Source: Natrarchaeobius halalkaliphilus (GTDB lineage: Archaea; Halobacteriota; Halobacteria; Halobacteriales; Natrialbaceae). From it: DNA of 64,000 bases. Position numbers and translations under genes: made by a program. Each line of letters starts with the position of its first letter. Positions within the stretch are counted from its first letter, which is position 1. The notes beneath the pieces were generated by a model that was given only the letters and a program-made list of their open reading frames with translations, was not told the origin of the DNA and searched no databases. Positions 20,386 to 40,929 of the stretch are shown piece after piece. The stretch spans positions 248,001 through 312,000 of the forward strand of contig NZ_REFY01000005.1 in NCBI RefSeq assembly GCF_003841485.1, read 5' to 3'.

Positions 20386-20502
20386 CGTTCCTGTCGGATT
20401 TTCATATTTTTGTCTCCCCTGTTCGGCCCCCGACAACTCTGCCGTAGCACCGAACCGATCCGTTGTCTAGTTGTGATCTGTCTATATGTTAATTGTTTCG
20501 TT

Positions 20503-22698: not shown

Positions 22699-22702
22699 CG
22701 TC

Positions 22703-24658: not shown

Positions 24659-27600
24659 CAGCGATCACCTCCGACGTCGACGGTAACTGTGTGACGACCG
24701 CTGTACACGAGGATGTCCGGCGACACGTCTGGAGAGTCCTCACCGAGTGCGACCGTCAGCTGTCGATCGCCCTCGCTATAGGTGACCGCGAGATCGCGCA
24801 CGTGGCCCACAGACTCCAGCTTCTCGAGGTTCGCTGCGAACAGTGACGGTTCCGGGAGCGTGCCGATCGCCCAGCCGTCGCCTTCCGGTCCGCCGGTGAG
24901 AGGGTGAGCGAACTCCGTCAGTTCGGAAATCGCGCGATCGGTGACGGTAGTCGCACTTCGGGAGCCGCTCGTCGTAATCGTCGCCGTCACCGAGGCTTCG
25001 ACGTAGTTGGGGCCACGGATCGTCAGGTTCGAACGGTCGCCGGCGACCACCGCAGCCGGGACCCGTCGTTCCATCTCACGCTCGACGCGATTGACGAGTT
25101 CCTCGGAGGGTACAGGCTTGTGCTGGGCGACGTCCGGCACGATCACGAGGATCACTTTCCCCGGCGTGTCCGTCTCGTCTTCGCCGGCGATACAGCGGAC
25201 GCGGTCGATCTCTCTCGAGATCGCCTTCGTAATTCGGACGAAGCCGTCCCGAGTGATCGGCTTCCCGCGGTCCCGGAGGTTTTTCGGTGCCCGCTTGACG
25301 AACTCGGCCAGCGGCTCGGCCGGTTCACCGGCTTTCCCGGGCTCGTAGTTCGTGACACCTTTGACGTGCTGGATGGGATCGATCAGCGTTTCGACGGTTC
25401 CAGCCTGTTTGTTGCCGTCGTCGCCACCGCCGGTCTCGTAGTCCGCCCGGATATTGTTCTCGCCCTCGGGCGGAATGGCTCCTTCCTTCCCGTCGCCGAA
25501 GACGACCGTTCCCTCGGTTTCGTTGAGCACGAACTGGCGCGATTCAGGCCCGGAACCGATGAAGTCCGTGACTTCGGACCACTCGACCCACAGCTCCGAC
25601 AGGTGACCATCGGAGTCGTACACGTCGACGACGGTCGTCGACCGGTCGTCGATCAACTCCTGGGCCAGGCGCTCGGAGAGGGCGTCAGACTCGTCGACCC
25701 AGACGTCGACGGAGAGTGCCGGCGCATCGGGTAATTCGAATCTCTGGGAAGCAGTCCCATCGCTCGAGCCGACGACCTCGCTCTGGACGCTAGTGACGTT
25801 CGTTGCCCACTGAGTGTTCGGGTGAATTCCGTCTACGGTCGGAGCCAGCCGCGTGTGACTCTGTTCCTCGCGTGTGGCGAGCGACTGGTACGAGAGGACC
25901 TCGCGGATTCGGACAGATTCCTTGACCTCACTGTCCGGGACGAAAAGGCTCTCCTCGGTTCGATCGAAGTTGTCGCCGGTCATGGTCAGCCGCAGCCAGT
26001 GACGAGTCTTCCCGAACAGTTCGACCTCCGTCGTCGGCTCAGGCAGCGTGAGTGAAAGAATCCCCCGAACGGTCAGGTCGTCTGTCCCGTCTGAAATGCC
26101 GGTGCGTTGCCACTCGCGAGTGTGAACGTTCGCACAGTACTCGACGTCGAGCAGCGGATCGAACGACCGCGGATAAATCGCTTCGGCGATCGAAACGTAG
26201 AAATTCAGTGGTCCTCCTTCGAGCGCGCGTCCGAATCCGAGGTAGAGCGTCTGGGTATCGGTCGGCGACGACTGGAACGGACTGAACGGTTCGTCGGACG
26301 ACTCGATGGGGCACAGCGCCAGGTTGTTCTCAGTAACGAGGTGGGTGAACCGTCGTGGTTCGAGAATCGAACCGGGCGCGGGACGGTCGTCCGTGTCAGT
26401 CGTCGATTCAGGGGCATCATCGGTTGCCACAGTATCGTCGGCGTCGGTGACTGTCTCCGGATCCGCGTCGACCGCTCCGTCCACCTGCGACTCCGACTCC
26501 GGGGGTTCGTACGAAACCGAGATCGCGTCGTACTTCGGCGCGTCGATGTGGTCAGTCACCTGTTGCCAGTTCGAGTCCTCGACCTCTTCGAATTGGGGCT
26601 GCCCGTAATCGCCGGCGACGAGCCGGACTCGTATCCAAAGACCGGTCCAGCCGTTGACCGCGTCGACGGTCATGTCGTCCGGAACCGCAAAGCGAACCGT
26701 CCCGCTCTTGCGCAACGTGTCGGTCCCGTCATCGACCGACAGCGGTTTCCATCCGGCTTCCGCCGCGTACTCCCAGACCAGCCTGGGGTCCCCCTCCTCA
26801 TTGGGCTGCGTGTCAGTTCCGTCCGTCTCCCCATCCGTCTCTGAAACTGCGTCCGCTCCCCCGTCTTCGTCGCGTTCGAAACGCAACTCGACGGCGGTAC
26901 CGGGCTCCTCGAACGCATCGTCGCACGCAAATTCGGCCGAGAGTCCGACGATCGGAATCGAGCCCAGCAACGGCACGTCGACCTCACCCGTCGGATCGAG
27001 CTGCGTCCCGTTTGCAACCAGCGCGTCGAGATGCGTCTCGGTTGGCTCCGGTACACGCTCGCCGGTTCCTTCCTCGCCACCTGATTCGGACGAGTCGGGA
27101 GACTCACCTGGATCGGGCGCATCCTCATCGACACCGATCGCTTTTTCGGCCTCGGAACGACCACCACTGGTCGGCCCGTCGGCCGAAAAAGCGGATCCCG
27201 ACTCTTCGCCGTCACCGTCATCCGCGTCGTCGTCGCCCTCATCGCCGATCGCAGGCGTGACCGTGACGGTCACCGACTCGATGAGCGTATTGAACATCGC
27301 GTGAGAAAGATCGTCGTCCGGGAATCGCGCCCGAATCCAGAAACTCCCCACGCCGGAGACGGCACCGGGTTCCGGTTCGCCCGGAACCGTCACCTCTACC
27401 GTGACCGTATCAAACTCCGCTCCGAACTCCACGCCGTCGGCCATTTGATTCAATCGATACCGCAACTGATCGAGGTGTCGAGAGATCTTGTGGCAGGTCT
27501 CGTCGTCGAGTTCCCGCGGGTCGATTAGCGCCGTCGGTAGTCCGCTGTCGCCATCTTCTGGGCGCCCAGTCGCGTCGAACTGACCGTTTCGCACGTCGTC

Positions 27601-28419
27601 GGCAAGCACCGTTAGCAACGACTCCTCTTCCGGCCCCTCCACTCTCGTATACGACGCGTGAGGGAGGACGAGTTCGAGTTTGTCGACCAGTGACCGAACC
27701 TGGGCCAGTTCCGAAACCGCCGGCACCTCGTTCCGGCGTTGCCCGTGAACGTCGAGAGGGTGCCAGCCCTCCTCGCCTTCCTCGTTCTCGCCATAATACT
27801 CCCACGTGAGAAACGTCCGAATCGCTTCCGCCGGCGCATTGGTCTGGATCGCAAGCTCGAGTTTCGCACCGGGCTCGACGTCCAGCAGGTCGGGATCACC
27901 GAGGTATAACGCGTGCTCCTGAACGTTTGACCCCGTGAACAGCCGAACTGACCCGTCGCTTCCGATCAGTTCGTGATGGGGGACGATGCGATCGACTCCC
28001 GGATCGACCGCGAAGACGTCGGTGATTCTCGCCGGCGTTCCTTCGAATTCGGTTCCGGTCGTCTCGAACCGCTGGCTTGGGTGTCGTTCGGTTTCTACCG
28101 CCTCAAGGGTCGTCCCGTCCGGGATAACGACGTTATTCGGTGCGTTTTCCGCGATTTCGAACGTAACCGGAACGGTTGCTGGCTGTGGCGGGTTGGGGGT
28201 GAAATCGAGCATGTCGAGAAACATCACCCGGTGTTTGACAGGAGTCTGGTTCAGCCGTTCGGTGATCTCCTCCCCCATTTCGGCGAAAATCTCGAGCAAC
28301 GCTGTCCCGGCGTCGTCCTCCTCTACGTCCCATCCGTCGACGTAGTGCGGCGCGAGTTCCCGCGTTCGCTCGAGAATGTCAGCTTTGTCGTTGTCGTCGA
28401 GTATTGGCCTTCGAACCAT
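24658..28419 (-). CDS. Large baseplate J-like wedge protein (first)
   Basis: A 1253-residue baseplate assembly protein. N-terminal block ILDDNDKADILERTRELAPH...GTALLEIFAEMGEEITERLNQ; internal repeats of a beta domain with the pattern LVWEY...W...SGTVRFAVPDD...GLWIRVRL; then the J core (FVFGDGKEGAIPPEGENNIRADY; LRDRGKPITRDGFVRITKAI) and a C-terminal AHPLTGGPEGDGWAIG block. At about 385-475 and 640-690 it carries long Asp/Glu/Ser/Gly-rich insertions that look disordered and explain its length. It and the shorter J-like protein should build the baseplate wedge that triggers sheath contraction. Confidence 0.88.
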   Translation of the reverse strand: MVRRPILDDNDKADILERTRELAPHYVDGWDVEEDDAGTALLEIFAEMGEEITERLNQTPVKHRVMFLDMLDFTPNPPQPATVPVTFEIAENAPNNVVIPDGTTLEAVETERHPSQRFETTGTEFEGTPARITDVFAVDPGVDRIVPHHELIGSDGSVRLFTGSNVQEHALYLGDPDLLDVEPGAKLELAIQTNAPAEAIRTFLTWEYYGENEEGEEGWHPLDVHGQRRNEVPAVSELAQVRSLVDKLELVLPHASYTRVEGPEEESLLTVLADDVRNGQFDATGRPEDGDSGLPTALIDPRELDDETCHKISRHLDQLRYRLNQMADGVEFGAEFDTVTVEVTVPGEPEPGAVSGVGSFWIRARFPDDDLSHAMFNTLIESVTVTVTPAIGDEGDDDADDGDGEESGSAFSADGPTSGGRSEAEKAIGVDEDAPDPGESPDSSESGGEEGTGERVPEPTETHLDALVANGTQLDPTGEVDVPLLGSIPIVGLSAEFACDDAFEEPGTAVELRFERDEDGGADAVSETDGETDGTDTQPNEEGDPRLVWEYAAEAGWKPLSVDDGTDTLRKSGTVRFAVPDDMTVDAVNGWTGLWIRVRLVAGDYGQPQFEEVEDSNWQQVTDHIDAPKYDAISVSYEPPESESQVDGAVDADPETVTDADDTVATDDAPESTTDTDDRPAPGSILEPRRFTHLVTENNLALCPIESSDEPFSPFQSSPTDTQTLYLGFGRALEGGPLNFYVSIAEAIYPRSFDPLLDVEYCANVHTREWQRTGISDGTDDLTVRGILSLTLPEPTTEVELFGKTRHWLRLTMTGDNFDRTEESLFVPDSEVKESVRIREVLSYQSLATREEQSHTRLAPTVDGIHPNTQWATNVTSVQSEVVGSSDGTASQRFELPDAPALSVDVWVDESDALSERLAQELIDDRSTTVVDVYDSDGHLSELWVEWSEVTDFIGSGPESRQFVLNETEGTVVFGDGKEGAIPPEGENNIRADYETGGGDDGNKQAGTVETLIDPIQHVKGVTNYEPGKAGEPAEPLAEFVKRAPKNLRDRGKPITRDGFVRITKAISREIDRVRCIAGEDETDTPGKVILVIVPDVAQHKPVPSEELVNRVEREMERRVPAAVVAGDRSNLTIRGPNYVEASVTATITTSGSRSATTVTDRAISELTEFAHPLTGGPEGDGWAIGTLPEPSLFAANLEKLESVGHVRDLAVTYSEGDRQLTVALGEDSPDVSPDILVYSGRHTVTVDVGGDR

Positions 28420-28425
28420 CAGTGA

Positions 28426-28833
28426 TCACTCGTTAATGTAAAAGGGATACACCATGTTTCCCTCCGAGTTCGTCGACCTGACGACGTACCGTATCGTGAT
28501 CAACAGCGTGTTCGGGTGGTCCGGATCCGCACTCGCGTCGACGTCACGAACGTCGATCCGCGGCTCCCAGGCGATCAATGCCTCCCTGACGCTTTCTTCG
28601 GCGAGCGACATCGTCGCTCCGTTGATCGAGTCGAAGACGTGGTCGTGAATGTCACAGCCAAATTCGGGACGCATCACTCGTTCCCCCTTCGCCGTTCCGA
28701 CGATGATCCTGATCGCTTCTTCGACGCTTTCGTTATCTGACGAGAGTGCAATGTCTCCTCTGTGATCGGTGCTTACTGGGAATTGCCAGCCGCTCCCGGG
28801 GAACGGATCTTCTGGATGGGTATCTCGGACCAT
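28426..28833 (-). CDS. gp25/gpW-family baseplate wedge protein
   Basis: A 135-residue protein matching the T4 gp25 / P2 gpW lysozyme-like wedge family. Key features are SVEEAIRIIVGTAKGERVMRPEFGCDI (the conserved RxMxPxFG core) and a C-terminal ITIRYVVRSTN strand. It joins sheath and wedge. A GTG two codons upstream overlaps the PAAR stop codon, but the ATG at 28833 is preferred. Gene order PAAR-gp25-J-J is the same as in PVC/Afp clusters. Confidence 0.9.
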   Translation of the reverse strand: MVRDTHPEDPFPGSGWQFPVSTDHRGDIALSSDNESVEEAIRIIVGTAKGERVMRPEFGCDIHDHVFDSINGATMSLAEESVREALIAWEPRIDVRDVDASADPDHPNTLLITIRYVVRSTNSEGNMVYPFYINE

Positions 28834-28835
28834 GG

Positions 28836-29147
28836 TCACGGCCCAATTAGCACTGTTGGTTCTCCCACCGCGATACTATTCGGTCCAACGTCCGACGCTG
28901 CTTCGGGAATCTGATCGGCGACTCGCGCCGCCGGGAGGTTGTTGATTAGCACCGTCCCGGTCGTCGGAACGGCCGTGCCACCGCCGTGAGGTGCGCCGCC
29001 GGAGTTGGGGATCGAACACGAGGCGAAGTCGGATCCCGCTCGCCACGCCGGTTGACCGCCGATCAGGACAGTCGGGCTGCCCGGACCTGGCGAGAGCGGT
29101 TCGCCGTGCGCTGTCGGATCACCGACTCGCGCCGCTGGTTTCCCCAT
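28836..29147 (-). CDS. PAAR-repeat spike tip protein
   Basis: A 103-residue PAAR protein that caps the spike and sharpens it. It begins KPAARVGDPTAHGEPLSPG and ends GPNSIAVGEPTVLIG, with repeated PTVLIGG / GTVLINN beta elements and His residues (HGEP, APHGGG) that could bind the tip metal. A clear GGAGG ribosome-binding site lies 9 nt before its ATG, unusual in an operon otherwise built on overlaps and short gaps, perhaps because the gap to the spike gene is 101 bp. Confidence 0.9.
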   Translation of the reverse strand: MGKPAARVGDPTAHGEPLSPGPGSPTVLIGGQPAWRAGSDFASCSIPNSGGAPHGGGTAVPTTGTVLINNLPAARVADQIPEAASDVGPNSIAVGEPTVLIGP

Positions 29148-29248
29148 CTAGCTCCCTCCTGTCGATCGCCCGCTGGGTGTGGTCTCCGTTCGATCCGTTT
29201 GCATCGGTGTGTGTACTCGGTTCATAGTGGAACTGTTGTGGTCTCGGT

Positions 29249-31366
29249 TCAGTTGAGTTTGATTAACGGTGCCTGTGCCTTCACGAGGTTTTTGCCTTTC
29301 AACGTGACCATCTGTCCGTCGATCGTTGCTGCTGACTTGGCTTTTACCGTCGTCATTTTCCCGTCGAGAGTGACCGCTTTCCCTTTGACCGTCGCGCTGG
29401 TTCGACCCTCGACGGTGGTCGCTTTCCCCTTGACAGTCGCCGATTTCGCCCCATCGACCGTCGTATTCTGCCCCTCGACAGTCGTGGTTTTGGCCTCGAC
29501 GGTCGCCGACTGTTTTCCCTTGACAGTCGTTTCGTCGCCCTGAACCGTCGTTTGTTTGCCCTTGACGGTCGTCTGTTTGGTACCGTTGATCGTGGTTCGC
29601 TGGCCGTCGATGGTGATGTCGGGCGCGCTTAGGTCGAGGCTCTTCGTCGCCTCGATGGAGATCGAATCCGCGGAGATCGTGATTCCGTTACTCTTGATCT
29701 CGATATTTCCGGAAGCCGTCAGCTGAGGATGACCAGCGGTGAGGTTGATATCGCCGCCCCGGGTGGCCGTTGGCTTCGCGCACGTCAAATTGATCTCGCC
29801 GCCGGTCTGGGTGGTGGAACTGGTCGTACTCAGGTCGATCGTCCCGCCCATCGGCCCCTGATCACCGTCGGTCGCAGTCATGCTAATCTCCCCACGAAGC
29901 GGCGACTTCGCGTCGCCATGGGCGGTCATGCTGATCTGGCCACCTCCAGCTTCCTTCAACGCGTTCATCGGATTGCTGGCCACGTCGAGAACGTCTGCTG
30001 TACCCGGTTTCTTCGTGTACAGGCTAACGCCGGTTCGAGTAAGGCTAACGGAATTTTTCAGTGGGTCCGACAGGCTGACCGTTTTGATCAGATCGTCGAC
30101 GCCGAGTCCCCGCTTTGCCTGGGTCTGGAGTGCAATCGACGACAGATTGGGCGTGTCCTTCGGTGTCACGCCAGGAACGTCGGACAGCTCCGTAAAGCCC
30201 GATAAGTCAGACACGACGTCACCAGTCTCGGCACCAGGATCGCCGACCCAGTCATCGAGTCCGCCGAGCGTGTTAGAGGCCCCGCTGATCTCTGTCGTGT
30301 CCATGAATCGACCGACGCTGTCGGCTGCGGAAGCGTCACCGACCGAACCGATCGCGCCGGTAATCGCGTCGTCGACCTCGCTGCCGTCCAGGTATCCAGT
30401 CGCGCCTTTGATGTCGTCCGACGCTTTCCCGTCGTCATCGTTATCATCGTCGTCGACCGCCTCGACCTCGAACGATGTCGTCTTTGAATCGTCTTCGGAG
30501 AAGACCGAGACCGAGACCTCGTACGTCCCATCTTCGTCGGTGTCGGGATCGAACACCCCTTCGAACGTGACGGCGTCCTCTTCGTCTTCCTCGAGCTCGA
30601 GGTCATCGTCGTCGACCTGTTCGCCGAGGAGATTCAATCCGATCGACTGTGTCGCCTCTTCAGATCCCGTGTTTACCACCGTTGCCGTCACCTCGAGCAG
30701 TTCGCCTTCGGTCGCGGGCGGGTCAACCGACACGTCGTCGATCTCGAAGTTCGCCCTGTTCGCGTCGAACGAGGCAACCATTCGTTCACCTTCCGCAACT
30801 TTCTCACCGATATCCTGAATCATCTCGTCGGCGTATCCCGGTCCAACCTTTGGATACATGTTCGCGAACGCGAGTTCCGATCCCGTCTTGGTGGTGATCT
30901 TATTTGCGTCGTTCGCGATAAACGGGATATAATCTGCCCAGGACCGTACTGCCTTCATCCTTTCGTCGGGTTTTGGGCTCTCTTTCTCCGAACTCATCGA
31001 GTGGTACATCATCTTACCCAGTTTGTAGGCTTCGGCGAACCGTTCGACGTCCTTGCGCATGTCGTCGATCAGGTTTTCGCCTTCGTTGTGTAACGACCCG
31101 ACCACGAACGGCTGTCCGTCGAGATCTGCATTCTCGAACGTAACGAGTACCTCTGCGCCTGTATCGGGCTGGAAGTGAGAGCCGAAGCCATCTCCGGCCA
31201 TGAACCTGGCGACGCGGGCCCACAGCTCACCCGGGTCCTCACGGTTGTTCAAATTTACCTGTACTCGGGATTTATCCTCCGGATCGTCGGTGTCGACGAC
31301 CGTCGCACTGTGGACGCCGTACAGTTTCGCCTCGCCAGAATCGTCGTCAATCGGTGTTTCGAACAT
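29249..31366 (-). CDS. VgrG/gpV-like spike with inserted CARDB-like domain
   Basis: A 705-residue central spike. Residues about 12-98 form the gp5/gpV OB domain (AKLYGVHSATVVDTDDP; GELWARVARFMAG; QPDTGAEVLVTF). A helical segment (100-200) leads to a CARDB-like Ig fold at about 205-303 (VDPPATEGELLEVTATVVNTG...GTYEVSVSVFS) bounded by acidic linkers. From about 470 on is a beta-helix needle, with 14 or so 7-8 residue units of the TTVKGK/TTVEGQ type between 590 and 693. It should trimerise, sit on the hub and carry the PAAR tip. Confidence 0.88.
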   Translation of the reverse strand: MFETPIDDDSGEAKLYGVHSATVVDTDDPEDKSRVQVNLNNREDPGELWARVARFMAGDGFGSHFQPDTGAEVLVTFENADLDGQPFVVGSLHNEGENLIDDMRKDVERFAEAYKLGKMMYHSMSSEKESPKPDERMKAVRSWADYIPFIANDANKITTKTGSELAFANMYPKVGPGYADEMIQDIGEKVAEGERMVASFDANRANFEIDDVSVDPPATEGELLEVTATVVNTGSEEATQSIGLNLLGEQVDDDDLELEEDEEDAVTFEGVFDPDTDEDGTYEVSVSVFSEDDSKTTSFEVEAVDDDDNDDDGKASDDIKGATGYLDGSEVDDAITGAIGSVGDASAADSVGRFMDTTEISGASNTLGGLDDWVGDPGAETGDVVSDLSGFTELSDVPGVTPKDTPNLSSIALQTQAKRGLGVDDLIKTVSLSDPLKNSVSLTRTGVSLYTKKPGTADVLDVASNPMNALKEAGGGQISMTAHGDAKSPLRGEISMTATDGDQGPMGGTIDLSTTSSTTQTGGEINLTCAKPTATRGGDINLTAGHPQLTASGNIEIKSNGITISADSISIEATKSLDLSAPDITIDGQRTTINGTKQTTVKGKQTTVQGDETTVKGKQSATVEAKTTTVEGQNTTVDGAKSATVKGKATTVEGRTSATVKGKAVTLDGKMTTVKAKSAATIDGQMVTLKGKNLVKAQAPLIKLN

Positions 31367-31371
31367 ATATC

Positions 31372-32370
31372 TTACAGCCCTCGAACTTCGAACTCCGTTT
31401 TGTACCCGTCGTCGCCGATGCGGTGGATTGCGTCCGTTATGTAATAATTCTTTTCGTACTCCGAACTAAATCCGGTCAGTTCGACCACCTCTCCCGCGAC
31501 GAGAGACGGAATTCCAAACGTCTTGGCAACCCCGGTAACTCGCGACGTGTGGAGTTTAGAATCGGCGATCCGCTGTGCCTCGGCCTGAGAACTGACTCGG
31601 ATACGAAAGACCTCCGGACTTCCACCGCTTCCGTTGTTCGCCTCTGCACTGATCTTCTTTCGTCGTTCTCGATCCCAGTACTTCACCACGACAGCACCGT
31701 GGCGCAACGCCTTCGTCGTCGCCGAAAACGACTCGAGTGACGAGCCATACGTCAACGTCGTGACTGGATCTCCCGGTGACACGCCGCCGTCTCGGGGCAC
31801 GAAGTAGAGTGTCCCGGCCGACGAGAAGAACTCGAAACCGTACTTCGCAGCGACTCGTTTGAGGAAACGGTAATCGCTTTCGTTGTCTTGGATAACACCT
31901 TGTGGTGTTATTCCACCGTCCTCGATTTCGATGTCCTCGAAGTAGTTCGAGGCGATCGACTCGACGATCGCCTCGAGCGACTTCCCCTTCCAGGAGTCAG
32001 AACGTGTCCCGCGCATCATCTTTCGGCTGTGGCCATAGGCCGTAACGACGATCCAGGGCGGCTCAGCCGTTGGAAACGTCGGTTCGACCGTTTCGACTTC
32101 GCCGCTGAACAACTGCGCGGAACTCTCTTCTCCGTACGCCATCCCGACACTGACCCCTGTTCCCGGACCGATAGAATCCAGCGCGACGTTCTTGAACGAG
32201 CCGAACTCATGATCGAACGGGGGGGTCAGCGCGATCCGACAACGGTCAGCGCCGTCGACGGCAGTATCGACGGTCACTTCCGAGACGCTTTCGCTGTATT
32301 CGCGGAACGTTTCGGTTCCAATTTTGACGACGAACTGTGCCGCTTTCGCGCCCGGATACATCTCCCCCAC
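31372..32370 (-). CDS. gpD-like baseplate hub protein
   Basis: A 332-residue hub protein of the phage late control D / T4 gp27-like family. It has an N-terminal beta barrel (AQFVVKIGTETFREYSESVSEV), then TAYGHSRKMMRGTRS, SNYFEDIEIED and the typical ESDYRFLKRVAAKYGFEFF block, and a C-terminal barrel (YYITDAIHRIGDDGYKTEFEV). In short systems this and the gpV spike together do the job of one VgrG. GTG at 32370 leaves 2 nt after the small upstream gene; ATG 32361 is the alternative. A near-perfect ATAACACC-N4-GGTGTTAT palindrome falls inside the gene (31892-31911). Confidence 0.88.
   Translation of the reverse strand: MGEMYPGAKAAQFVVKIGTETFREYSESVSEVTVDTAVDGADRCRIALTPPFDHEFGSFKNVALDSIGPGTGVSVGMAYGEESSAQLFSGEVETVEPTFPTAEPPWIVVTAYGHSRKMMRGTRSDSWKGKSLEAIVESIASNYFEDIEIEDGGITPQGVIQDNESDYRFLKRVAAKYGFEFFSSAGTLYFVPRDGGVSPGDPVTTLTYGSSLESFSATTKALRHGAVVVKYWDRERRKKISAEANNGSGGSPEVFRIRVSSQAEAQRIADSKLHTSRVTGVAKTFGIPSLVAGEVVELTGFSSEYEKNYYITDAIHRIGDDGYKTEFEVRGL
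31892..31911. promoter_or_regulatory. Palindrome matching the site before the cap gene
   Basis: 8-bp arms ATAACACC and GGTGTTAT around TTGT. It differs by one base (in the spacer) from the palindrome at 46909-46928. It lies inside the hub gene, so its sequence is also constrained by coding; a regulatory role is a guess. Confidence 0.3.
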
Positions 32371-32372
32371 GG

Positions 32373-32543
32373 TTACCCTCGAATGCGTGTGACGGTCCCG
32401 CCGAGGAGAGCCCCAGCGACCGTTCGCGTCGGTGACGCAAATCGTTCACTCCGACCAGTGTACTCGTGGTTGACCCGCCGATGGACGCCGACTCGGAACC
32501 CCAACAGCGCTGCCGTGATCGCCGGTGACAAATGGCTCGTCAT
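32373..32543 (-). CDS. Small 56-aa protein between LysM and hub genes
   Basis: A 56-residue frame that fills the gap exactly. Its ATG overlaps the LysM-gene stop as ATGA, and its TAA is 2 nt before the hub gene GTG. The product begins MTSHLSPAITAALLGFRVGV, with a short hydrophobic N-terminal helix followed by an Arg/Thr-rich stretch. I know no family for it. Tight overlap on both sides is the main evidence that it is translated. Small proteins of unknown role are common at this position in CIS clusters. Alternatively the frame only maintains translational coupling across the gap. Confidence 0.55.
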   Translation of the reverse strand: MTSHLSPAITAALLGFRVGVHRRVNHEYTGRSERFASPTRTVAGALLGGTVTRIRG

Positions 32544-33175
32544 AGCGGCGGAAGAGAGAGTTTGGTCCCCGGCGGGATCTCTCGAGGATTCTCGAGTTCG
32601 TTGGCCTCGGCGATCGTCCGCCAGTGGGATGGATCACCGTACTCCGCTGCCGCGATGAGCCAGAGCGTGTCACCTTCGGACACCGTTTTGAGCTTCGTTT
32701 TGTCCGTCGATTCGTGTTTGATCCGTCGCTTTTGCTGTTTCGGATCTGCGTGCTGTTTGAATGTGACGTCAACCCAGGCCCGCACGGGCGTTCCGTCGGG
32801 CCGAAAGCGCGTAAAGCGTTTGTCGGCTTCGACGACGATGGATTTGAACGCCAGGCCGTTTCCCCAGACGAACCGACACGATGGCGGAGCGTGGAGTTTG
32901 CCGTCGACTGCCATCAACGAGTCGATCACGTCCGTGTACTCCGTTCTGACGTCCGCCTGCGTCTCGGTGGTATCGAAGAACAACTCAACAGTAAGCGTAT
33001 CCGCAACGCCGTTCGTGAACTGCTGTATCGGAGCGTTGAGTGCCGTTCGATGCTCGCCGTATCCGGCCTGCCTGTTCAACTGATACTCATTGGGATTGAA
33101 CGCACACTCGAGTTTCGTCCCGGCGTTGCTACCGTCGAGAATCGTAATGTACGCTCGCTCTAGAGACCCGCTCAT
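32540..33175 (-). CDS. LysM-containing baseplate protein (Afp7/Pvc7-like)
   Basis: A 211-residue protein. The N-terminal domain has the CIS pattern LECAFNPNEYQLNRQAGYGEH...ADTLTVELFFDTTE and W-V-D-V-TFKQHADPKQQ. A C-terminal LysM module (about 163-210, TVSEGDTLWLIAAAEYGDPSHW...PGTKLSLP) is typical of the T4 gp53-like family, where LysM clamps neighbouring wedges rather than binding peptidoglycan, which haloarchaea lack. Its ATG follows the stop of the disordered protein with no gap. Confidence 0.9.
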   Translation of the reverse strand: MSGSLERAYITILDGSNAGTKLECAFNPNEYQLNRQAGYGEHRTALNAPIQQFTNGVADTLTVELFFDTTETQADVRTEYTDVIDSLMAVDGKLHAPPSCRFVWGNGLAFKSIVVEADKRFTRFRPDGTPVRAWVDVTFKQHADPKQQKRRIKHESTDKTKLKTVSEGDTLWLIAAAEYGDPSHWRTIAEANELENPREIPPGTKLSLPPL

Positions 33176-36100
33176 CTACAGCCCCCTTCTCTCGCGGTCG
33201 ATTTGTCTTTTTCGTTCGGTTTTCCGATAGATCTTCTCGACGAGATCGTCGATGAGGCCCCTCGACTGGAGCACCGCCTCGAGGTCCACCTGATTGACAC
33301 CGTCTCGACGCCGTGGCTGGACAAGACTTGCGTCGTCTCGCGGCTGCCGGGGCTCGTTTGTCGCACCTGGATACGCGGCCGATTCTTCGATGGCACCAGT
33401 CGGTTGCGGAGGGTCCGATACCGTCGGTTCGGAACGCGTCGTCCCCGTTCGAACGGACTCGCTCGACGGATCTGGAACAACTGGAGGAGTGGCGTCTGGA
33501 TGGACCACTCGTTCGCTGGACCGAGCCGGCCCCCTCACCGGAGGGAGTTTCGCGTGAGTGAACGCCGGATCGGGCTGCCCGTTCACGGCTCGCCTTCGAC
33601 CCGACCGCCTACCTGTGGTCGATTCGTGGACAACAGTTCGTGTCAGCTCGTCCGTCGACCGGTCAACGGCGTCGCGGCGCTGGATTGCTCCCGTCAGTGA
33701 CCTCCATGCGGGTCGTTTCGGTAACAGGTCGGGACGGTCGCTCGCACCTGATCGCTTCCGCGTGGACGGCTCGTCCTCCGAACGCGAGACGGATGGTGGA
33801 GTGATGTCGTCGCGGGTTCCCCGTGACCGTCGGGTGCCGTTCCACGGAGCCACAGTGCTCCGGTCGGTGACGAACACGGTGCCGGTCCCTCTTCGAAGAG
33901 TACGCACCGGGTCTTCCCCGGCGGCCATCGAGTCTAGCGGTGCCGAACGCTCTCGAAAGTCACCGCTCGAGTCCGCGTCCGAGTCGACGCCCCCGTGCTC
34001 GTGAACGTCATTACGTGACGACGAACGCCGCTCGGCTGGTACCCGCCCTCTCTGTGGAGTCAGACCGGGAGCGGTCATCGGGCTTGCCGTGGTGACGACA
34101 TGTCGCCGCTGCACCGAACGGACGAGTTGGCCGCGCGAACGCGGCTCCTCGACGTCCCCCAACGATCGAGCGGCAACGCCCCGGGACGAGACGGCAGCTG
34201 CCGCAACTTCCACTCCTCGAGACGTCGCTCGAGAAGGACTCTCGGGTTCCTGACGGGGAGTTTCCGCCGCGAAGTCTCCATTCGCTGTCTCGAGGGGGTC
34301 GGTGGTCTTGGGCCGCGGCGATCGGTCGCCCTCGACACTTCGGGACCGGGGGGTTCGATGGGTGTGCGAGCTGTACAACCGGCGTGAGTCGCCGCTAGCT
34401 CGATCACTGCGAGCGGGTGGTTCCGGCGAGGACGTTGTGATCAGCGTTCCGGCCGGCCCCCGATCGGATTTCCGTATCCCGCTCCCGGTTCGATTCACCT
34501 TCCTTGCGGAGTCGCGTGGTGGTGTGTATCGTTGCTGGACGGCCGCGGTAAACCGCGCTCGCACCCGTTCGACCGAGTAGGCATCGGGGACGTCCCCCAC
34601 CGGAAGCTCGATGGGATGGTCCCCGGTATCTCCCGTGGAACCGCTGTGGATTGCGGGCTTCGATCCGAGAGTGCGATGTGAACGCGAGTGACCGGCCTCG
34701 ACCGGGGCGGATTCAGCCGTGGTCGGCCGGGGTGAGTGACCGTGGGCACTCGCACGTCCAGACGGGGCGGGGTTCTGGCCGTATTCGGCTCGGGAGCTCG
34801 CTGATTCGGGGCCTGATTCGGTGTCAAATAACGGGGCGGATGCAAGGCCGGGCACAGGAATGTACAGCTCTCGAAGCGGGTACGGAGCCGACGAACCGGC
34901 GCGGGTGCTTGCGTCACGGCGACCAGGTATCGAACCGACGCGAGTGGGTGCACGACGGCGACGAATTGACCGCGCGAAGGTGGTCCCCGATCGACCGCTC
35001 GGCGAGACGGATCGGTCTCCGGCAGGAACCGATGTGGCGGCCAACTCCCAACCACCGATCGAATGCGTCGTCGGCCCCTCGAACTCCGGGCGGGAACGAT
35101 CGAGAGGGGGACGAGCAACAGACTCGGTCGCGTGAGCTTCCGCTGGCTCTGACCGGGAGCGTTCGCTGGAACCGCCTGGTCGTAATCCGGGTTGTTGAGC
35201 GGCGCCTCGAGGAAGGTTTCGTGAGTTGTTCGGCTCCGGCACATGGTTCGATGCTGCCAGTTCACCCCCTGACTTCGAGCCCGACGCGGACGACACTCGG
35301 GTCGATCTCGCATTCGACCCGTGAGAGAGAGCTACATTCGCGGGTACACCGGAACCAGCGGTTCGACGGCGTCGAATAGAACGGGCGAACGATTCACCGG
35401 TAGATCGCGCCGAAACGCGGTCTGGTGGGTTCCCTGACACCGACGCGTCCCGTCCGTCCCACTCGTCCTTTCGGACGGGACTGGCGGTACCCCGCACGCC
35501 GTCGACGTGGTGGCGTGACGCCCATCGCCGCGAGCGTGACCCAGGAGACGACCGAACGGTACCCGTCCTCGATCCGCCTTCGCGTCCGCTTCCGCGTCCA
35601 GTACCGCGTGACGGTGCTCTCGTCCGTGCAGTCTGCGTTCTCCTCTTGGTCCCCTGCCTCGGCTCCCCCTCGCGTCGGTTCGTTGCCTCTCCCGACCGAG
35701 CTGGGTCCACCGGAAATTCGTCGGTCTCCACGTGGCGCGACTCCGTAATACGTCCTGGAACGGTTCCGTACGCCGTCCGCTTCGAACCGGTCCAGCGTCG
35801 CGAGGTGTTCGCACGCACTCGAGAGCTGGACGAGCGGCCGTGGACCACTGGGATGTTGGCTGAACCGTTCGACCCATCCGTACCGATAGTGTCGGCAACG
35901 CCCTGCAAGTCAGATTCGGGTGGATCGATCGGACCGACTCGACCGTCCGTACCGCCCGAATCAACTGGGCCGAAGGTATCGAGCACTCCTGGCGCGGTCG
36001 CACCGTCCGACGAACCCGTTGCTTTTGGGAATCGGTACGAGGGAGAACGCGTCGAGGCGTTGGAACTCGAGAGTGACTGGCGCTGAATTCGCCGACCAGT

Positions 36101-36466
36101 TTTTTCCCGTCGAACCGATTGCGAGCGTCGATGGGGTGAACGAGAGGCGTGATCGGCGAGGGAATCGTGCCGTGAACTCCCCCATCGGTCGGCGTCTTCG
36201 TCGTGATCCTCGAAGAACTGCAGTTGGGTCATCGGCACTTGCGGGATTTGCCTGACGCCGATGGGAAGCGGCTGCCGTTTTTTCGACGAACCGAACGGCT
36301 CGGACCGGACCATCGAGTTCCCGTGACGACGGACAACTGACTCGAGGGGGCCGTCGCGACCGACGCCAGCGACGTCACGGTCGACAGTTCCGAGAGCGTC
36401 ATTGGGGACCTGAGAAGCGATCGAGCGCACCGTAAGGAGGTCCGGCACGCGATCAGTCGACGTCAC
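33176..36466 (-). CDS. 1096-aa Arg/Ser-rich disordered protein with spaced RRR motifs
   Basis: I recognise no folded domain except a short C-terminal helix (VDLEAVLQSRGLIDDLVEKI, then RKTERKRQIDRERRG). The rest is low-complexity Ser, Arg, Gly, Pro and Thr. By hand count there are about 159 Arg and 20 Lys, a very basic protein in an acidic proteome. A motif of the form Phi-x-R-S/A-Phi-R/Q-R/Q-R recurs, its hydrophobic anchors at residues 364, 501, 643, 785, 857 and 928, so steps are 137, 142, 142, 72 and 71. It sits between tube and LysM genes, where phages encode chaperones and tape measure. The start is GTG 36466; the first 100 residues have normal haloarchaeal codons. Its role is unknown: ruler, scaffold or cargo adaptor. 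Confidence 0.72.
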   Translation of the reverse strand: MTSTDRVPDLLTVRSIASQVPNDALGTVDRDVAGVGRDGPLESVVRRHGNSMVRSEPFGSSKKRQPLPIGVRQIPQVPMTQLQFFEDHDEDADRWGSSRHDSLADHASRSPHRRSQSVRREKTGRRIQRQSLSSSNASTRSPSYRFPKATGSSDGATAPGVLDTFGPVDSGGTDGRVGPIDPPESDLQGVADTIGTDGSNGSANIPVVHGRSSSSRVRANTSRRWTGSKRTAYGTVPGRITESRHVETDEFPVDPARSGEATNRREGEPRQGTKRRTQTARTRAPSRGTGRGSGREGGSRTGTVRSSPGSRSRRWASRHHVDGVRGTASPVRKDEWDGRDASVSGNPPDRVSARSTGESFARSIRRRRTAGSGVPANVALSHGSNARSTRVSSASGSKSGGELAASNHVPEPNNSRNLPRGAAQQPGLRPGGSSERSRSEPAEAHATESVARPPLDRSRPEFEGPTTHSIGGWELAATSVPAGDRSVSPSGRSGTTFARSIRRRRAPTRVGSIPGRRDASTRAGSSAPYPLRELYIPVPGLASAPLFDTESGPESASSRAEYGQNPAPSGRASAHGHSPRPTTAESAPVEAGHSRSHRTLGSKPAIHSGSTGDTGDHPIELPVGDVPDAYSVERVRARFTAAVQQRYTPPRDSARKVNRTGSGIRKSDRGPAGTLITTSSPEPPARSDRASGDSRRLYSSHTHRTPRSRSVEGDRSPRPKTTDPLETANGDFAAETPRQEPESPSRATSRGVEVAAAAVSSRGVAARSLGDVEEPRSRGQLVRSVQRRHVVTTASPMTAPGLTPQRGRVPAERRSSSRNDVHEHGGVDSDADSSGDFRERSAPLDSMAAGEDPVRTLRRGTGTVFVTDRSTVAPWNGTRRSRGTRDDITPPSVSRSEDEPSTRKRSGASDRPDLLPKRPAWRSLTGAIQRRDAVDRSTDELTRTVVHESTTGRRSGRRRAVNGQPDPAFTHAKLPPVRGPARSSERVVHPDATPPVVPDPSSESVRTGTTRSEPTVSDPPQPTGAIEESAAYPGATNEPRQPRDDASLVQPRRRDGVNQVDLEAVLQSRGLIDDLVEKIYRKTERKRQIDRERRGL

Positions 36467-36685: not shown

Positions 36686-37129
36686 TTAGGCCATCTCGCG
36701 ATCCATCTTGTCGTAGGAGATGGTAATGATGATCTTGATCGCTTCGCCGCCACTGAGCGTGTCTCCGTACTCGTACTTGACCATCCGTGCGTTGGTGAAT
36801 TTCCAGCGGACGACGGGGTTGTCGCTGGGGTCCTTGGCCGTGACGCTAATCACCTGCTCGTGTTCGTCGTCGCTGAAGTCTCGCATCGCCTCCCACCACT
36901 TGTCGATCGCCGATTTCCCGCTTTGGGCGTAGAGTTCCGCGGTGAAGGTTCCCCCAAAGTCGGGTTGATCGGCGTGTTTTATCGGGTGTCGTGGTCCCGA
37001 GCCAACCTGGTGTTCGATGACCGGAATGTTCCGTTTCGGTAGGTTCACCCGGAAGAACTGAGGCACTTCTCGACCACCAAAGTCAACGTCGAAGTCATCG
37101 GATTCGATCGGTGTCGATGTAACTGGCAT
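36686..37129 (-). CDS. Tail tube protein (gp19-like), main tube candidate
   Basis: A 147-residue inner tube protein. It shows the gp19/Pvc-tube pattern: FFRVNLPKRNIPVIEHQVGSG, FTAELYAQSGKSAIDKWWEAM, RWKFTNARMVKYEYGDTLSGG and a final strand IKIIITISYDKMDRE. Tube rings stack through these beta hairpins. The frame runs on 24 codons upstream over the preceding gene, but the ATG at 37129 is 4 nt after that gene's stop and matches the usual N terminus. Confidence 0.88.
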   Translation of the reverse strand: MPVTSTPIESDDFDVDFGGREVPQFFRVNLPKRNIPVIEHQVGSGPRHPIKHADQPDFGGTFTAELYAQSGKSAIDKWWEAMRDFSDDEHEQVISVTAKDPSDNPVVRWKFTNARMVKYEYGDTLSGGEAIKIIITISYDKMDREMA

Positions 37130-37133
37130 CGGA

Positions 37134-37574
37134 TTACTCTTCCTCCATGTAGTCGACGGAGATGACGAACATCTCGGTCGCCGTGTCCGACCGCATGGCA
37201 CACAACGTCGGTGGATGATACTCTTTGACCCACGTTCCGGTGAACTTCAGCGTGGAAATCGTCGTGGATTCCTGATCTTTGATGAAGATCGTGAGCGGCT
37301 TTTTGATCGCGCTGGTGTCCCCGGTTGTCGCTGCCAGATCGTGTTCGTCGTACAGCTTGGTGGACATGTCCGCCTTGATGTCGCGGTGGACTACGAGGTC
37401 GCCGAACAGCAACCTGCCCTGGGTTTCCTGTACCGGGTCCGGGTTCCCGTTGTCGTGGGTGATCTGCTCGATTCGTTGCTCGGGAAGTTCGATGTCGGTG
37501 ACCGTTGGAATCTCATCGCCGTCGTGTTCAAAGGTGAAATACGACGACTTGAGAAGTCTGATATCTGCGGACAT
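37134..37574 (-). CDS. Tail tube-like protein, second copy
   Basis: A 146-residue gp19-family protein (YFTFEHDGDEIPTVTDIELPEQRIEQI; LLFGDLVVHRDIKA; LKFTGTWVKEYHPPTLCAMRSDTATEMFVISVDYMEE). It is shorter and more divergent than the next tube gene, so it may form a tube-initiator or adapter ring rather than the main tube, as inferred for accessory tube paralogues in PVC/Afp. It starts 4 nt after the sheath stop. Confidence 0.85.
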   Translation of the reverse strand: MSADIRLLKSSYFTFEHDGDEIPTVTDIELPEQRIEQITHDNGNPDPVQETQGRLLFGDLVVHRDIKADMSTKLYDEHDLAATTGDTSAIKKPLTIFIKDQESTTISTLKFTGTWVKEYHPPTLCAMRSDTATEMFVISVDYMEEE

Positions 37575-37578
37575 TGGA

Positions 37579-39312
37579 TTATGAGTCTCCGGTCCACTGA
37601 CCGATTCTGAAGATCACGAACTCAGCCGGCTTCACCGGAGCTACACCGATCTCACAGATCAGCCGTCCGTTGTCGATATCGTCTTGGGTCATCGTCGATC
37701 CCTTTCCACAGTCGACGTAAAATGCCTCGCTGGCCGAGGTGCCCATCAACGCACCATCGCGCCACTGAGTCGTCAGGTACTGTTCGATTGTCTGAGTCAC
37801 TCGAGCCCACAGGTCCTGGTCATTCGGTTCGAAAACCGCCCACTGGGTTCCCTCGTCGATCGATTGCTTGAGGAACAGGAACAGACGACGAACGTTAACG
37901 TACTTCCACTCGGGATCGCTCGAAGTCGTCCGAGCGCCCCAAACGCGAATCCCACGCCCCTGGAAGCTCCGGATGCAGTTGATTCCCTTCGGATTCAGGA
38001 TGTCCTGTTCAGCTTTCGTCAGGTCGACCTGTAGCGACATCGCACCGCGGACAACCATGTTCGCAGGTGCTTCGTGGACGCCGCCTTCGTTGTCGTTTCT
38101 GGCGTAAATTCCGGCGACGTGACCGCCCGGCGGAACCAGTTCCTGAACCCCTTTTTCAGGGTGCATCACGTTGATCCAGGGGTAGTAATACGCCGCGTAC
38201 GTCGAGTCGGCTGGCGTCTCGTGATCGGCCACCGGATCGGGGTTTTGCTCGGCTTGTAGCACCGCAATCCGTTCTTTCATGTTCTCACAGTGGGCGACGA
38301 GCGCTTCCGTCAGCCCGGGAACGTCGTTCTCATCGGGCGCGCAGACGATCGAAATGTTTGAGATCTCTTCGAACGCAGCGAGGCCCGTTCGCTGCCCGGG
38401 CGTTCCGTCGCCCTCATAGTCACCAACCGTTACCCCGTCGCCGCCGTCGGTGAGGAGTTGCGCTTCGCTCGCGGCTTTAACTTCCTCGAGCAGTTCGGGC
38501 TTGTTCTGATCGGTATCGACGTCGAGTTCCTCGGCGACTTCGACCAGTTCGTCCTTGGTCATGTCCTCGAGTTCGTCCCCGTCGGGGAGATCCGGACCCT
38601 CGCCGCCATCATCGCCATCGTCGTCGCCACCGTCGGCCCCGTTTTCGCCACCGTTGACGCCGCCATCGGTGCTTGCAATCTTGAGCCAGACGGTCTGGTT
38701 CTCCGGCCGGCCGTCGCCCAGTTTTTCGATCTCGATGAAGTTGGACGAGCCCTCGATCGCGCTCTCGTAGTACTGGGTCGACCCTTCGTCAGCATTGATC
38801 TCGTCGAATCGTTCTTCGTTCGTCGGCATCGGGTCCGGCTCGTCGCCGTCGGGGTCTTCGACGTCGTCGGGATCCGCATCCGACCAGTAGCGGACGGTGA
38901 GGCCGAACACCGTGTTGTCCGAAGCGGACATCGGTGCGTCGGTAACCGTTACGGCGACCTGTCCACCCCAGTCACCCGGCCCGACCGCTCGAGCGCCGAT
39001 GACGTCGTCTCCATCGTCGTTACTCAGCGTCGCAGTACCGACGTCGGAGCGGGAAGCGTCCGTGACGCGCCCGACGAACGCTCTACTGCCGCCGTTTTTG
39101 AAGAAGCCGTCGATAGCGTGAGTGAGAAACGAATCGTCGACGTAGCCGCCGAACTTTCGTTTGTAATCGTTGAATCCGGTCACGAGCTGCGGTTTGAGCG
39201 GCCCGCGTTCTGTCTGTCCGAGGAATCCTGCTGTGCTGGTGCTTACGCCTTCGACGGATTTGGATCCTTCCGTCTCTTCGACGTAGACACCCGGTGAGAG
39301 GTATTCTGGCAT
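37579..39312 (-). CDS. Contractile sheath protein with Rho_N/SAP-like insert
   Basis: A 577-residue sheath subunit. N-terminal MPEYLSPGVYVEETEGSKSVEGVSTSTAGFLG and the C-terminal half (YYYPWINVMHPEKG; PPGGHVAGIYARND; GINCIRSFQGRGIRVWGARTTSSDPEWKYVNVRR; VAPVKPAEFVIFRIGQWTG) are diagnostic of the tail sheath family. Between them is a variable outer domain with an acidic Gly/Asp linker (215-246) and a helical module at 247-281 (EDMTKDELVEVAEELDVDTD) that looks like a Rho N-terminal/SAP fold. Only one sheath gene is present, whereas PVC/Afp have three. The insert would face outward on the particle. Confidence 0.92.
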   Translation of the reverse strand: MPEYLSPGVYVEETEGSKSVEGVSTSTAGFLGQTERGPLKPQLVTGFNDYKRKFGGYVDDSFLTHAIDGFFKNGGSRAFVGRVTDASRSDVGTATLSNDDGDDVIGARAVGPGDWGGQVAVTVTDAPMSASDNTVFGLTVRYWSDADPDDVEDPDGDEPDPMPTNEERFDEINADEGSTQYYESAIEGSSNFIEIEKLGDGRPENQTVWLKIASTDGGVNGGENGADGGDDDGDDGGEGPDLPDGDELEDMTKDELVEVAEELDVDTDQNKPELLEEVKAASEAQLLTDGGDGVTVGDYEGDGTPGQRTGLAAFEEISNISIVCAPDENDVPGLTEALVAHCENMKERIAVLQAEQNPDPVADHETPADSTYAAYYYPWINVMHPEKGVQELVPPGGHVAGIYARNDNEGGVHEAPANMVVRGAMSLQVDLTKAEQDILNPKGINCIRSFQGRGIRVWGARTTSSDPEWKYVNVRRLFLFLKQSIDEGTQWAVFEPNDQDLWARVTQTIEQYLTTQWRDGALMGTSASEAFYVDCGKGSTMTQDDIDNGRLICEIGVAPVKPAEFVIFRIGQWTGDS

Positions 39313-39788: not shown

Positions 39789-40247
39789 TCAGCTGGTTCG
39801 GGCGTCGAGTGACTCGTAGGCGAGTTCGAGCCGTTCGATCGAGAGTCCGGTTTCCTCTCGGTCGGATCGTGCGTTGGCGACGAGTTCCGGACCATCCCAC
39901 CGCACTGGATAGGCATTGATCAGGACCCACGTCCATCTGGTTCGATCCTCCCGATCTTTCATCGCAACGCTCACTTTCGATCGGACGTCGGCTCTCGCCC
40001 CCGACAGCGATTCCATGATCCAGTCGAGAAATCCGTCGTCGTCCGTCACTCCGCGATGAAGCGTGACGTTCGAGTAGGCCACGTCGCTCGGAAACGTATG
40101 CGTAACTTCGTGGAGTCCACCCTCACGATACTCGAGGACGTTCGATTCGGCACCAAGTCCTGAAATCCTGGTGAAGCCACCGACCATGTCGTCGTCGATG
40201 CGTACTTCGTACGTGAAGTTCGTGTACGGGCTGTCGTGTCCGGTCAT
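39789..40247 (-). CDS. Tail tube-like protein, first in operon (Pvc1/gp54-type position)
   Basis: A 152-residue gp19-family protein: SPYTNFTYEVRIDDDMVGGFTRISGLGAESNVLEYREGG, HRGVTDDDGFLDWIMESLSG and VLINAYPVRWDGPELVANARSD. It starts 5 nt after the stop of the DUF6760-type frame. It is likely to be a tube terminator/initiator ring because a separate main tube gene follows the sheath. Confidence 0.85.
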   Translation of the reverse strand: MTGHDSPYTNFTYEVRIDDDMVGGFTRISGLGAESNVLEYREGGLHEVTHTFPSDVAYSNVTLHRGVTDDDGFLDWIMESLSGARADVRSKVSVAMKDREDRTRWTWVLINAYPVRWDGPELVANARSDREETGLSIERLELAYESLDARTS

Positions 40248-40252
40248 AGGTG

Positions 40253-40498
40253 TCAGATCATCTCCTCGAGGTTCGCGACGGGGAGGTCATCGACCCGGTG
40301 ATCGGGATCGAGTGAGGTATCCGAACCGCCCGCCTCGTTTTTCTGTTCGTTTATCTGGCTAATGTTGCGGCACCAGCGCTGTCGTTCCCAGTGGGGAAGC
40401 TCGAGTATCTCCTGGCGCGACCAGTTGAAGTAGTACGCGACGAACGCGATTTCTTCGTAGAGCCGCTCCGTTGGATACGGGTCGATTCCCGTTACGAG
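40253..40498 (-). CDS. DUF6760-type frame, reached by -1 frameshift from the chaperone
   Basis: 81 codons reading PYPTERLYEEIAFVAYYFNW, then SRQEILELPHWERQRWCRNI, a pattern I recall for small CIS/phage proteins encoded directly after the tail-assembly chaperone. In-frame, the upstream stop is the TGA at 40523-40521, and between it and the conserved block there is no ATG, GTG or TTG. The frame overlaps the end of the chaperone in the -1 phase, across a GGGAAAC heptamer. The expected product is a chaperone fusion of about 225 residues made by a fraction of ribosomes. An unusual start codon is the alternative. Confidence 0.75.
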   Translation of the reverse strand, partial: LVTGIDPYPTERLYEEIAFVAYYFNWSRQEILELPHWERQRWCRNISQINEQKNEAGGSDTSLDPDHRVDDLPVANLEEMI

Positions 40499-40519
40499 TT
40501 TCCCGGTTCGCTGTCCTCC
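40478..40519 (-). promoter_or_regulatory. Candidate programmed -1 frameshift signal
   Basis: Three elements in order on the minus strand. GGAGG (40519-40515) can pair with the 16S anti-Shine-Dalgarno. After 10 nt comes the heptamer G GGA AAC (40504-40498), of the X XXY YYZ type and in phase with the chaperone codons GGA and AAC. After 5 nt comes a hairpin, ACGGG with CCCGT around a 6-nt loop. The chaperone TAA is at 40494-40492. Spacing resembles the E. coli dnaX signal, and the heptamer resembles lambda GGGAAAG. Confidence 0.7.
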
Positions 40520-40929
40520 TCAGCAGTTGTCTTTTCACCCTGGTCGACATTCAGTGGTTCGTCAGGTTCAATCGACGAGGTCGAGTCGGCGGTTTCGTCA
40601 TCGGGGACCGTCACGTCCTCGAAGTCTGTGCGGCCGTCGTTGATTCGTTCGTACAGTTCCTGAAGATACTCCAGGTCCGGAACGAACAGAGACTCGACGA
40701 CGTCGGGTGACACCTCGTCAACGGTGCCAATCTGTGTGGTGACGCGGGAAAGCAGAAGGACGGTCAGATACGATGCGTTCTCTTGCACGCGAGGATCGTT
40801 CAGCGGTTTGATTTCGTCCGCAGCAGTCGCAAGACGCATCCGGCCGTCCCTGTGAACGGTACCCTCGTCGTCGACGTATCCTCTGGGTAGTGTGAACTCG
40901 AATTCCGTCTGTAGGCTTGGCTGAGACAT
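40492..40929 (-). CDS. Tail-assembly chaperone-like protein, first gene of CIS operon
   Basis: A 145-residue protein with the conserved CIS/phage pattern TEFEFTLPRGYVDDEGTVHRDG...RLATAADEIKPLNDPRVQENASYLTVLLLSRV and SLFVPDLEYLQELYERIN, followed by an acidic tail. It occupies the place of phage tail-assembly chaperones (lambda gpG-like role). The frame opens at ATG 40959, but the only good TATA box (40956-40967) lies over that ATG and predicts transcription from about 40935, so I use ATG 40929. Its last codons carry the -1 frameshift signal. Confidence 0.85.
   Translation of the reverse strand: MSQPSLQTEFEFTLPRGYVDDEGTVHRDGRMRLATAADEIKPLNDPRVQENASYLTVLLLSRVTTQIGTVDEVSPDVVESLFVPDLEYLQELYERINDGRTDFEDVTVPDDETADSTSSIEPDEPLNVDQGEKTTAEEDSEPGNS

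Follow-up and report, generated by a model that had tools for sequence, protein, structure and literature searches.

Inspection of a contractile injection system (CIS) locus in the haloarchaeon Natrarchaeobius halalkaliphilus leads us to infer with high confidence that its tail-assembly-chaperone gene undergoes a programmed -1 frameshift. The predicted product is a chaperone-DUF6760 fusion, the equivalent of P2 E/E' and lambda G/GT, retained in a cellular injection system; no evidence at the protein level was available for it. In the proposed mechanism the majority of the ribosomes would terminate at the TAA stop codon and release a chaperone of 145 aa. Pairing of an upstream GGAGG with the 3' end of the 16S rRNA would pause a minority of the ribosomes, which would then slip by -1 on G_GGA_AAC with tRNA-Gly and tRNA-Asn and read the DUF6760 frame. 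If homology with P2 E/E' and lambda G/GT is a guide, both products would be formed in a fixed ratio and serve as temporary assembly factors that deliver tube subunits to the machine as it grows. The occurrence of slippage, its efficiency, the product ratio and the assembly role are all inferred.

The features of the locus in the window (the whole stretch of 64,000 nucleotides that was analyzed) are given in Table 1. The chaperone ORF ends with GAA CCG GGA AAC TCG TAA. The slippery heptamer and the GGAGG 10 nt upstream of it, both pointed out in the sequence-only reading, are present, and the heptamer lies in the phase required for tandem slippage. In-frame G_GGA_AAY is rare, with 3 occurrences in 18,754 codons of the long ORFs of the window. 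The DUF6760 frame, open between 40519 and 40253, overlaps the end of the chaperone ORF in the -1 phase. Its PF20546 (DUF6760) match spanned about 40477-40325 and scored 79.2 bits, well over the cut-off of 27. As the same reading had stated, no ATG, GTG or TTG occurs in the locus sequence between the upstream TGA and the conserved DUF6760 block; the extension at this locus is predicted to be reachable only through a -1 slip. Slippage after AAC would join 144 chaperone residues to the 81 residues of the extension, and the proposed fusion length of 225 aa is correct. The predicted junction is ...EPGN-LVTGIDPYPTER.

Table 1. Features of the chaperone-DUF6760 locus and of the adjoining CIS gene cluster in the window.
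Feature	Position	Strand	Remarks
Tail-assembly-chaperone gene (0 frame)	40492-40929	-	145 aa, ATG start, TAA stop 40494-40492; PHROG_508 match
Slippery heptamer G_GGA_AAC	40498-40504	-	X XXY YYZ in chaperone frame, 10 nt before stop codon
GGAGG, Shine-Dalgarno-like putative stimulator	40515-40519	-	10-nt gap to heptamer
DUF6760 (T/E'-like) extension, -1 frame	40253-40498	-	81 codons, CTC to TGA 40255-40253
In-frame TGA, upstream close of DUF6760 frame	40520-40522	-	
5-bp hairpin ACGGG-AATCGA-CCCGT	40477-40492	-	claimed element; judged non-conserved
CIS5-like inner-tube adaptor (T4 gp19 fold), next gene	39789-40247	-	PF06841 102.7 bits, NF053770
Contractile sheath (Cis2)	37579-39312	-	PF04984, PF17482
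Two inner-tube proteins, 37574-37137 and 37201-36686	36686-37574	-	PF06841, NF053769
Rest of CIS cluster	18961-33175	-	
CIS_tube with LysM	33175-32540	-	
Hub	32370-31372	-	
VgrG-like spike	31366-29249	-	
Two Baseplate_J proteins	28419-24658 and 24658-22703	-	
CIS12	22713-20503	-	
CIS13	20436-18961	-	

Sheath, tube, spike, hub and baseplate genes adjoin the locus, and the test for a contractile injection system cluster was met. The window chaperone matched PHROG_508 'tail assembly chaperone' with an E-value of 1.3e-6 and met the test for membership in the phage tail-chaperone family; no Pfam match was obtained for it. PHROG_508 was matched by 11 of 11 chaperone homologues, Gp41_Mu by four and Phage_TAC_7 by one, with weak E-values. 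A solved-structure search with the chaperone and DUF6760 parts gave no match. The AlphaFold models, from whose alignments two rows from plasmid records were left out, were too weak for a fold search (chaperone: pLDDT 67.7, pTM 0.36; DUF6760: pLDDT 71.1, with a three-helix core near 88). Unlike most of its archaeal and bacterial homologues, the window chaperone has no CPxC zinc-ribbon-like segment at its C-terminus.

A strict lambda analogy needs a tape-measure client. Among the cluster ORFs scanned no match to a tape measure family was detected, and for the H. borinquense cluster Zachs et al. report no cis14, nor was a tape measure homologue found there (PMC11566945), which may count against this part of the analogy. 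Tape-measure-like effectors are known from Streptomyces CIS (PMC11126660, PMC13277306). Within the CIS cluster of the window, a Ser/Arg-rich ORF of 1096 aa (33176-36466, minus strand) matched no Pfam, NCBIfam or PHROG family. It looks largely disordered and unlike a tape measure protein.

In a sample of 391 genomes of the class, 47 were found to carry PF20546, and these represent 25 of 86 genera. Together with a second genome collection and plasmid records, this sample provided 62 distinct haloarchaeal loci. The alignment of haloarchaeal CIS junctions that had been proposed as a check of the frameshift revealed conservation of heptamer and phase, and of complementarity upstream. GGGAAAN was found in the slip phase of the chaperone, within the open -1 frame, in 60 of the 62 loci, and GGGAAA occurred in the other two codon phases in none of them (phase split 60:0:0). 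Within the 391-genome sample the hexamer was present in 24 of the 25 genera and in all five families. Its start lies exactly 16 nt ahead of the stop codon in 41 of the 60 loci. The seventh base is C in 29, T in 29 and G in 2 heptamers, which places an Asn codon (AAC or AAT) in the A site of 58 loci and the Lys codon AAG, preferred by bacteria, in that of only two. Loci with an ordinary start and no heptamer, which would have refuted the proposal, are confined to two of the 62 haloarchaeal loci and some bacteria. These two sister loci (L041 and L062), the sole haloarchaeal ones without the heptamer, group in a single well-supported clade that has lost it, and DUF6760 begins with ATG in each; in L041 chaperone and DUF6760 share one phase.

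The 16S rRNA gene of this genome ends with GGATCACCTCC, and the aSD duplex at the window locus was calculated as -10.1 kcal/mol. For the 60 loci the 20 nt ahead of the heptamer gave a mean of -8.5 kcal/mol with the 16S 3' end, compared with -4.1 kcal/mol for same-frame control windows of the same genes (Wilcoxon 3e-11). Pairing was optimal for 14-nt windows ending 3-6 nt upstream of the heptamer. The sequence of the Shine-Dalgarno (SD)-like element varies by lineage (GGAGG, GGTGAG, GGTGAT), which suggests that the pairing is under selection. Of the dnaX-like stimulators that had been proposed, the upstream SD-like element is thus conserved, and the corresponding dnaX-type feature, an internal Shine-Dalgarno sequence about 10 nt upstream, was met at the window locus. 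The second feature, a downstream hairpin, was not met. The claimed 5-bp stem is present in the sequence 5 nt downstream of the heptamer, but its z-score of 0.07 is at chance level and it is not conserved in relatives; a conserved downstream hairpin was likewise not found in the family (mean z -0.26 versus -0.04 for the control). The hairpin was consequently rejected as a conserved stimulator. A Natrinema subset has stronger downstream hairpins.

Termination-reinitiation, the rival that survives best, would yield a separate DUF6760 protein from a start overlapping the chaperone stop codon (ATGA or GTGA) or from a non-standard codon. An ATG, GTG or TTG lies within 12 codons upstream of the block in 38 of the 60 heptamer-bearing haloarchaeal loci, and in these a separately initiated DUF6760 is possible. 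It is not possible at the window locus, which together with 21 other heptamer-bearing loci (22/60) has no such start codon. Moreover, GTG is often a mere by-product of the Glu codon GAG before TGA and is gone when the stop codon is TAA or TAG. The -1 phase alone is equally compatible with an ATGA overlap, and some bacteria, for example L153 and L155-L159, have a plain ATGA overlap and no slippery motif. However, reinitiation would not need an invariant GGGAAA in a single codon phase, and the SD-like peak is positioned for the heptamer and not for the stop/start overlap, because it is placed too far upstream. We therefore regard termination-reinitiation as improbable. Given the start codons in relatives and the bacterial ATGA overlaps, a free DUF6760 protein may nevertheless be sufficient for function.

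The putative frameshift was also followed beyond the haloarchaea. Added surveys of Bacilli, Actinobacteria and methanogen-related archaea resulted, with the earlier loci, in 184 distinct loci, and the upstream chaperone was recognized in 181 of them. DUF6760 was in the -1 phase in 178 of these 181 archaeal and bacterial loci. With this phase, the heptamer in 60 of 62 haloarchaeal loci and the tail-chaperone family, the lambda-type reading originally put forward is supported in the absence of peptide evidence. Among the 117 non-haloarchaeal loci in the -1 phase, 66 carry GGGGG(A/G) in phase near the stop codon, 31 carry XXX(A/T)3Z such as T_TTT_TTG, the heptamer of the Paenibacillus/Cohnella relatives, and 20 carry neither motif. 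The G5 motif occurred 69 times in phase versus 6 and 5 times out of phase. Known as 'fivetwo', the motif GGGGGAA occurs at about a thousand frameshift sites of phages (PMC10885494). A start codon is present in 15 of the 20 motif-less loci and absent in 68 of the 97 motif-bearing ones; thus, a locus seems to have either a slippery site or an ordinary start, putative slippage being the commoner state. In a group of Bacilli (L153, L155-L159, L163-L165) the slippery motif is lost and a plain ATGA overlap is found, in some cases after GGAGGG. In these Bacilli, coupled initiation has putatively replaced frameshifting in a natural switch. A conserved GCTACCCCC follows GGGGGAATAR in methanogens, ANME-1 and several bacteria (L097, L102, L104, L123, L125, L188-L213). 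Pairing of the slippery Gs with the downstream Cs, and with it a structural control, is possible in these loci.

The frames might also be joined by transcriptional slippage or by an assembly indel. A transcriptional slip is conceivable on the six-T runs (TTTTTTG) of the Paenibacillus relatives, but GGGAAAC contains no long homopolymer, RNA polymerase slippage would be indifferent to codon phase, in conflict with the 60:0:0 split, and an assembly error could not recur across about 60 species. This explanation is very unlikely.

Selection at silent sites is directly visible in the heptamer, as are the anatomy of the locus, the phase, the conservation and the conserved SD-like element described above. 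Gly is encoded by GGA in 60 of 60 heptamers versus 71 of 340 cases in the chaperone domains of the same genes (Fisher 8e-35). The codon before GGA has nine different identities among the 60 loci, yet its third base is always G, compared with 2412 of 6326 codons (38%) overall (Fisher 1e-25). Asn is encoded by AAT in 29 of 58 heptamers and in 49 of 257 cases (19%) elsewhere in the same genes. The background codon usage was drawn from window ORFs and from the same chaperone genes. The Fisher tests count related sequences as independent, and shared ancestry was not fully corrected. On the tree the first six bases of the heptamer never change, whereas 13 changes are required for the C state at base seven, and well-supported branches make at least 10 of these unavoidable. 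Such repeated change beside six invariant bases is hard to explain except as a putative nucleotide signal. Conservation of Gly-Asn merely as a peptide motif at the chaperone C-terminus, without any nucleotide signal, would fit the GN found just ahead of the stop codon in 58 of 60 loci (GK in two), but is strongly disfavoured by the codon usage, with Gly always GGA and always after the third-position G of a variable codon, and by retention of the hexamer where Asn is replaced by Lys (GGGAAAG in L053 and L064), and hardly any room is left for it.

We consider it likely that a P2/Mu-like phage-tail recoding was kept in cellular CIS of bacteria and archaea and that its motif was retuned by lineage to T_TTT_TTG, G_GGG_GAA or G_GGA_AA(C/T) with an SD-like stimulator. 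If this is true, it represents the most widely conserved -1 frameshift among cellular archaeal genes, and it sets the ratio of chaperone to chaperone-DUF6760 in machines that may lack a recognizable tape measure protein. CIS annotations probably treat DUF6760 and the chaperone as two separate proteins, and the fused form has thereby probably been missed as a part of the machinery that assembles bacterial CIS and archaeal T6SS-like particles. The lineage switch of the slippery motif, with Asn and not Lys in the A site of 58 of 60 haloarchaeal loci, is a natural experiment on slippage of the archaeal ribosome. Archaeal frameshifting becomes directly testable, because the 60 haloarchaeal loci include culturable or genetically tractable genera.

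The statement that programmed -1 frameshifting is very rarely documented in Archaea holds insofar as Saccharolobus fucA1 is the only archaeal case called experimentally shown (PMC8211752); the predictions in haloviruses make candidates less rare than was implied. A frameshift in an injection system was held to be unreported, and none was found in the open-access literature, subscription papers being mostly outside this search. DUF6760 was named in no paper found in the open-access literature. The mechanism is already known and the same site was predicted in haloviruses; what appears to be new is the machine in which it is predicted and its conservation there. No conserved use of it in the injection systems of archaeal and bacterial cells seems to have been reported.

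In the record of phage P2, E+E' is annotated as the product of a -1 frameshift, and T_TTT_TTG is present at the junction. As at the loci described here, a chaperone ORF (the Pfam family Phage_TAC_7 unites E, 41 and 14) with a short -1 extension follows sheath and tube genes, and the slippery sequence is shared with the Paenibacillus/Cohnella relatives. P2 differs in being a phage with an adjoining tail-length protein; here a cellular CIS is concerned, in haloarchaea with G_GGA_AAC and an SD-like stimulator. Homology of DUF6760 to P2 E' or to the Mu extension was rejected, since P2 E' gave only a faint 'A.FHW' stretch of 5.4 bits, which is not significant, and Mu gave nothing; the likeness is kept to position and logic. 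For Mu the record annotates a -2 shift. A viral origin via close relatives was also rejected. The DUF6760 profile found no relative in IMG/VR contigs, and among phage records only Pseudomonas phage PG1 was matched (39% identity; the profile gave E 5e-6, though the database was small). In PG1 (L128) an unannotated DUF6760-like frame at 2402-2644 is flanked by 'tail assembly protein' on one side and 'tape measure protein' on the other. It resembles the present loci in its -1 phase, in T_TTT_TTG in phase and in the lack of a start codon; PG1 is, however, a bacterial phage and the similarity is weak. The fucA1 case has an archaeal -1 slip in common with the CIS loci, but concerns a metabolic gene with A_AAA_AAT in a single species, and an SD-like element is unreported for it.

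Phage lambda is a non-contractile siphovirus, and its A-site codon is AAG (Lys) and not AAC or AAT (Asn). The likeness lies in a low-level -1 slip close to the 3' end of gene G, on a heptamer of the G_GGA_AA type, which provides two products in a set ratio; neither remains in the finished particle (PMC5009743). These products, G and GT, are synthesized at about 30:1, bind the tape measure protein, bring in tube subunits and dissociate from the particle (PMC5009743). Sites in haloviral tail chaperones were predicted as G_GGA_AAC for HCTV-1, G_GGA_AAG for HCTV-5 and G_GGA_AAT for Hardycor1 (PMC5009743, PMC7911831), and for the HF1 group a +1 shift is possible (PMC7230728). These haloviruses differ from the CIS loci in being viruses with tape measure genes; they share with them the same heptamer, haloarchaeal hosts and the same place ahead of the tape measure gene.
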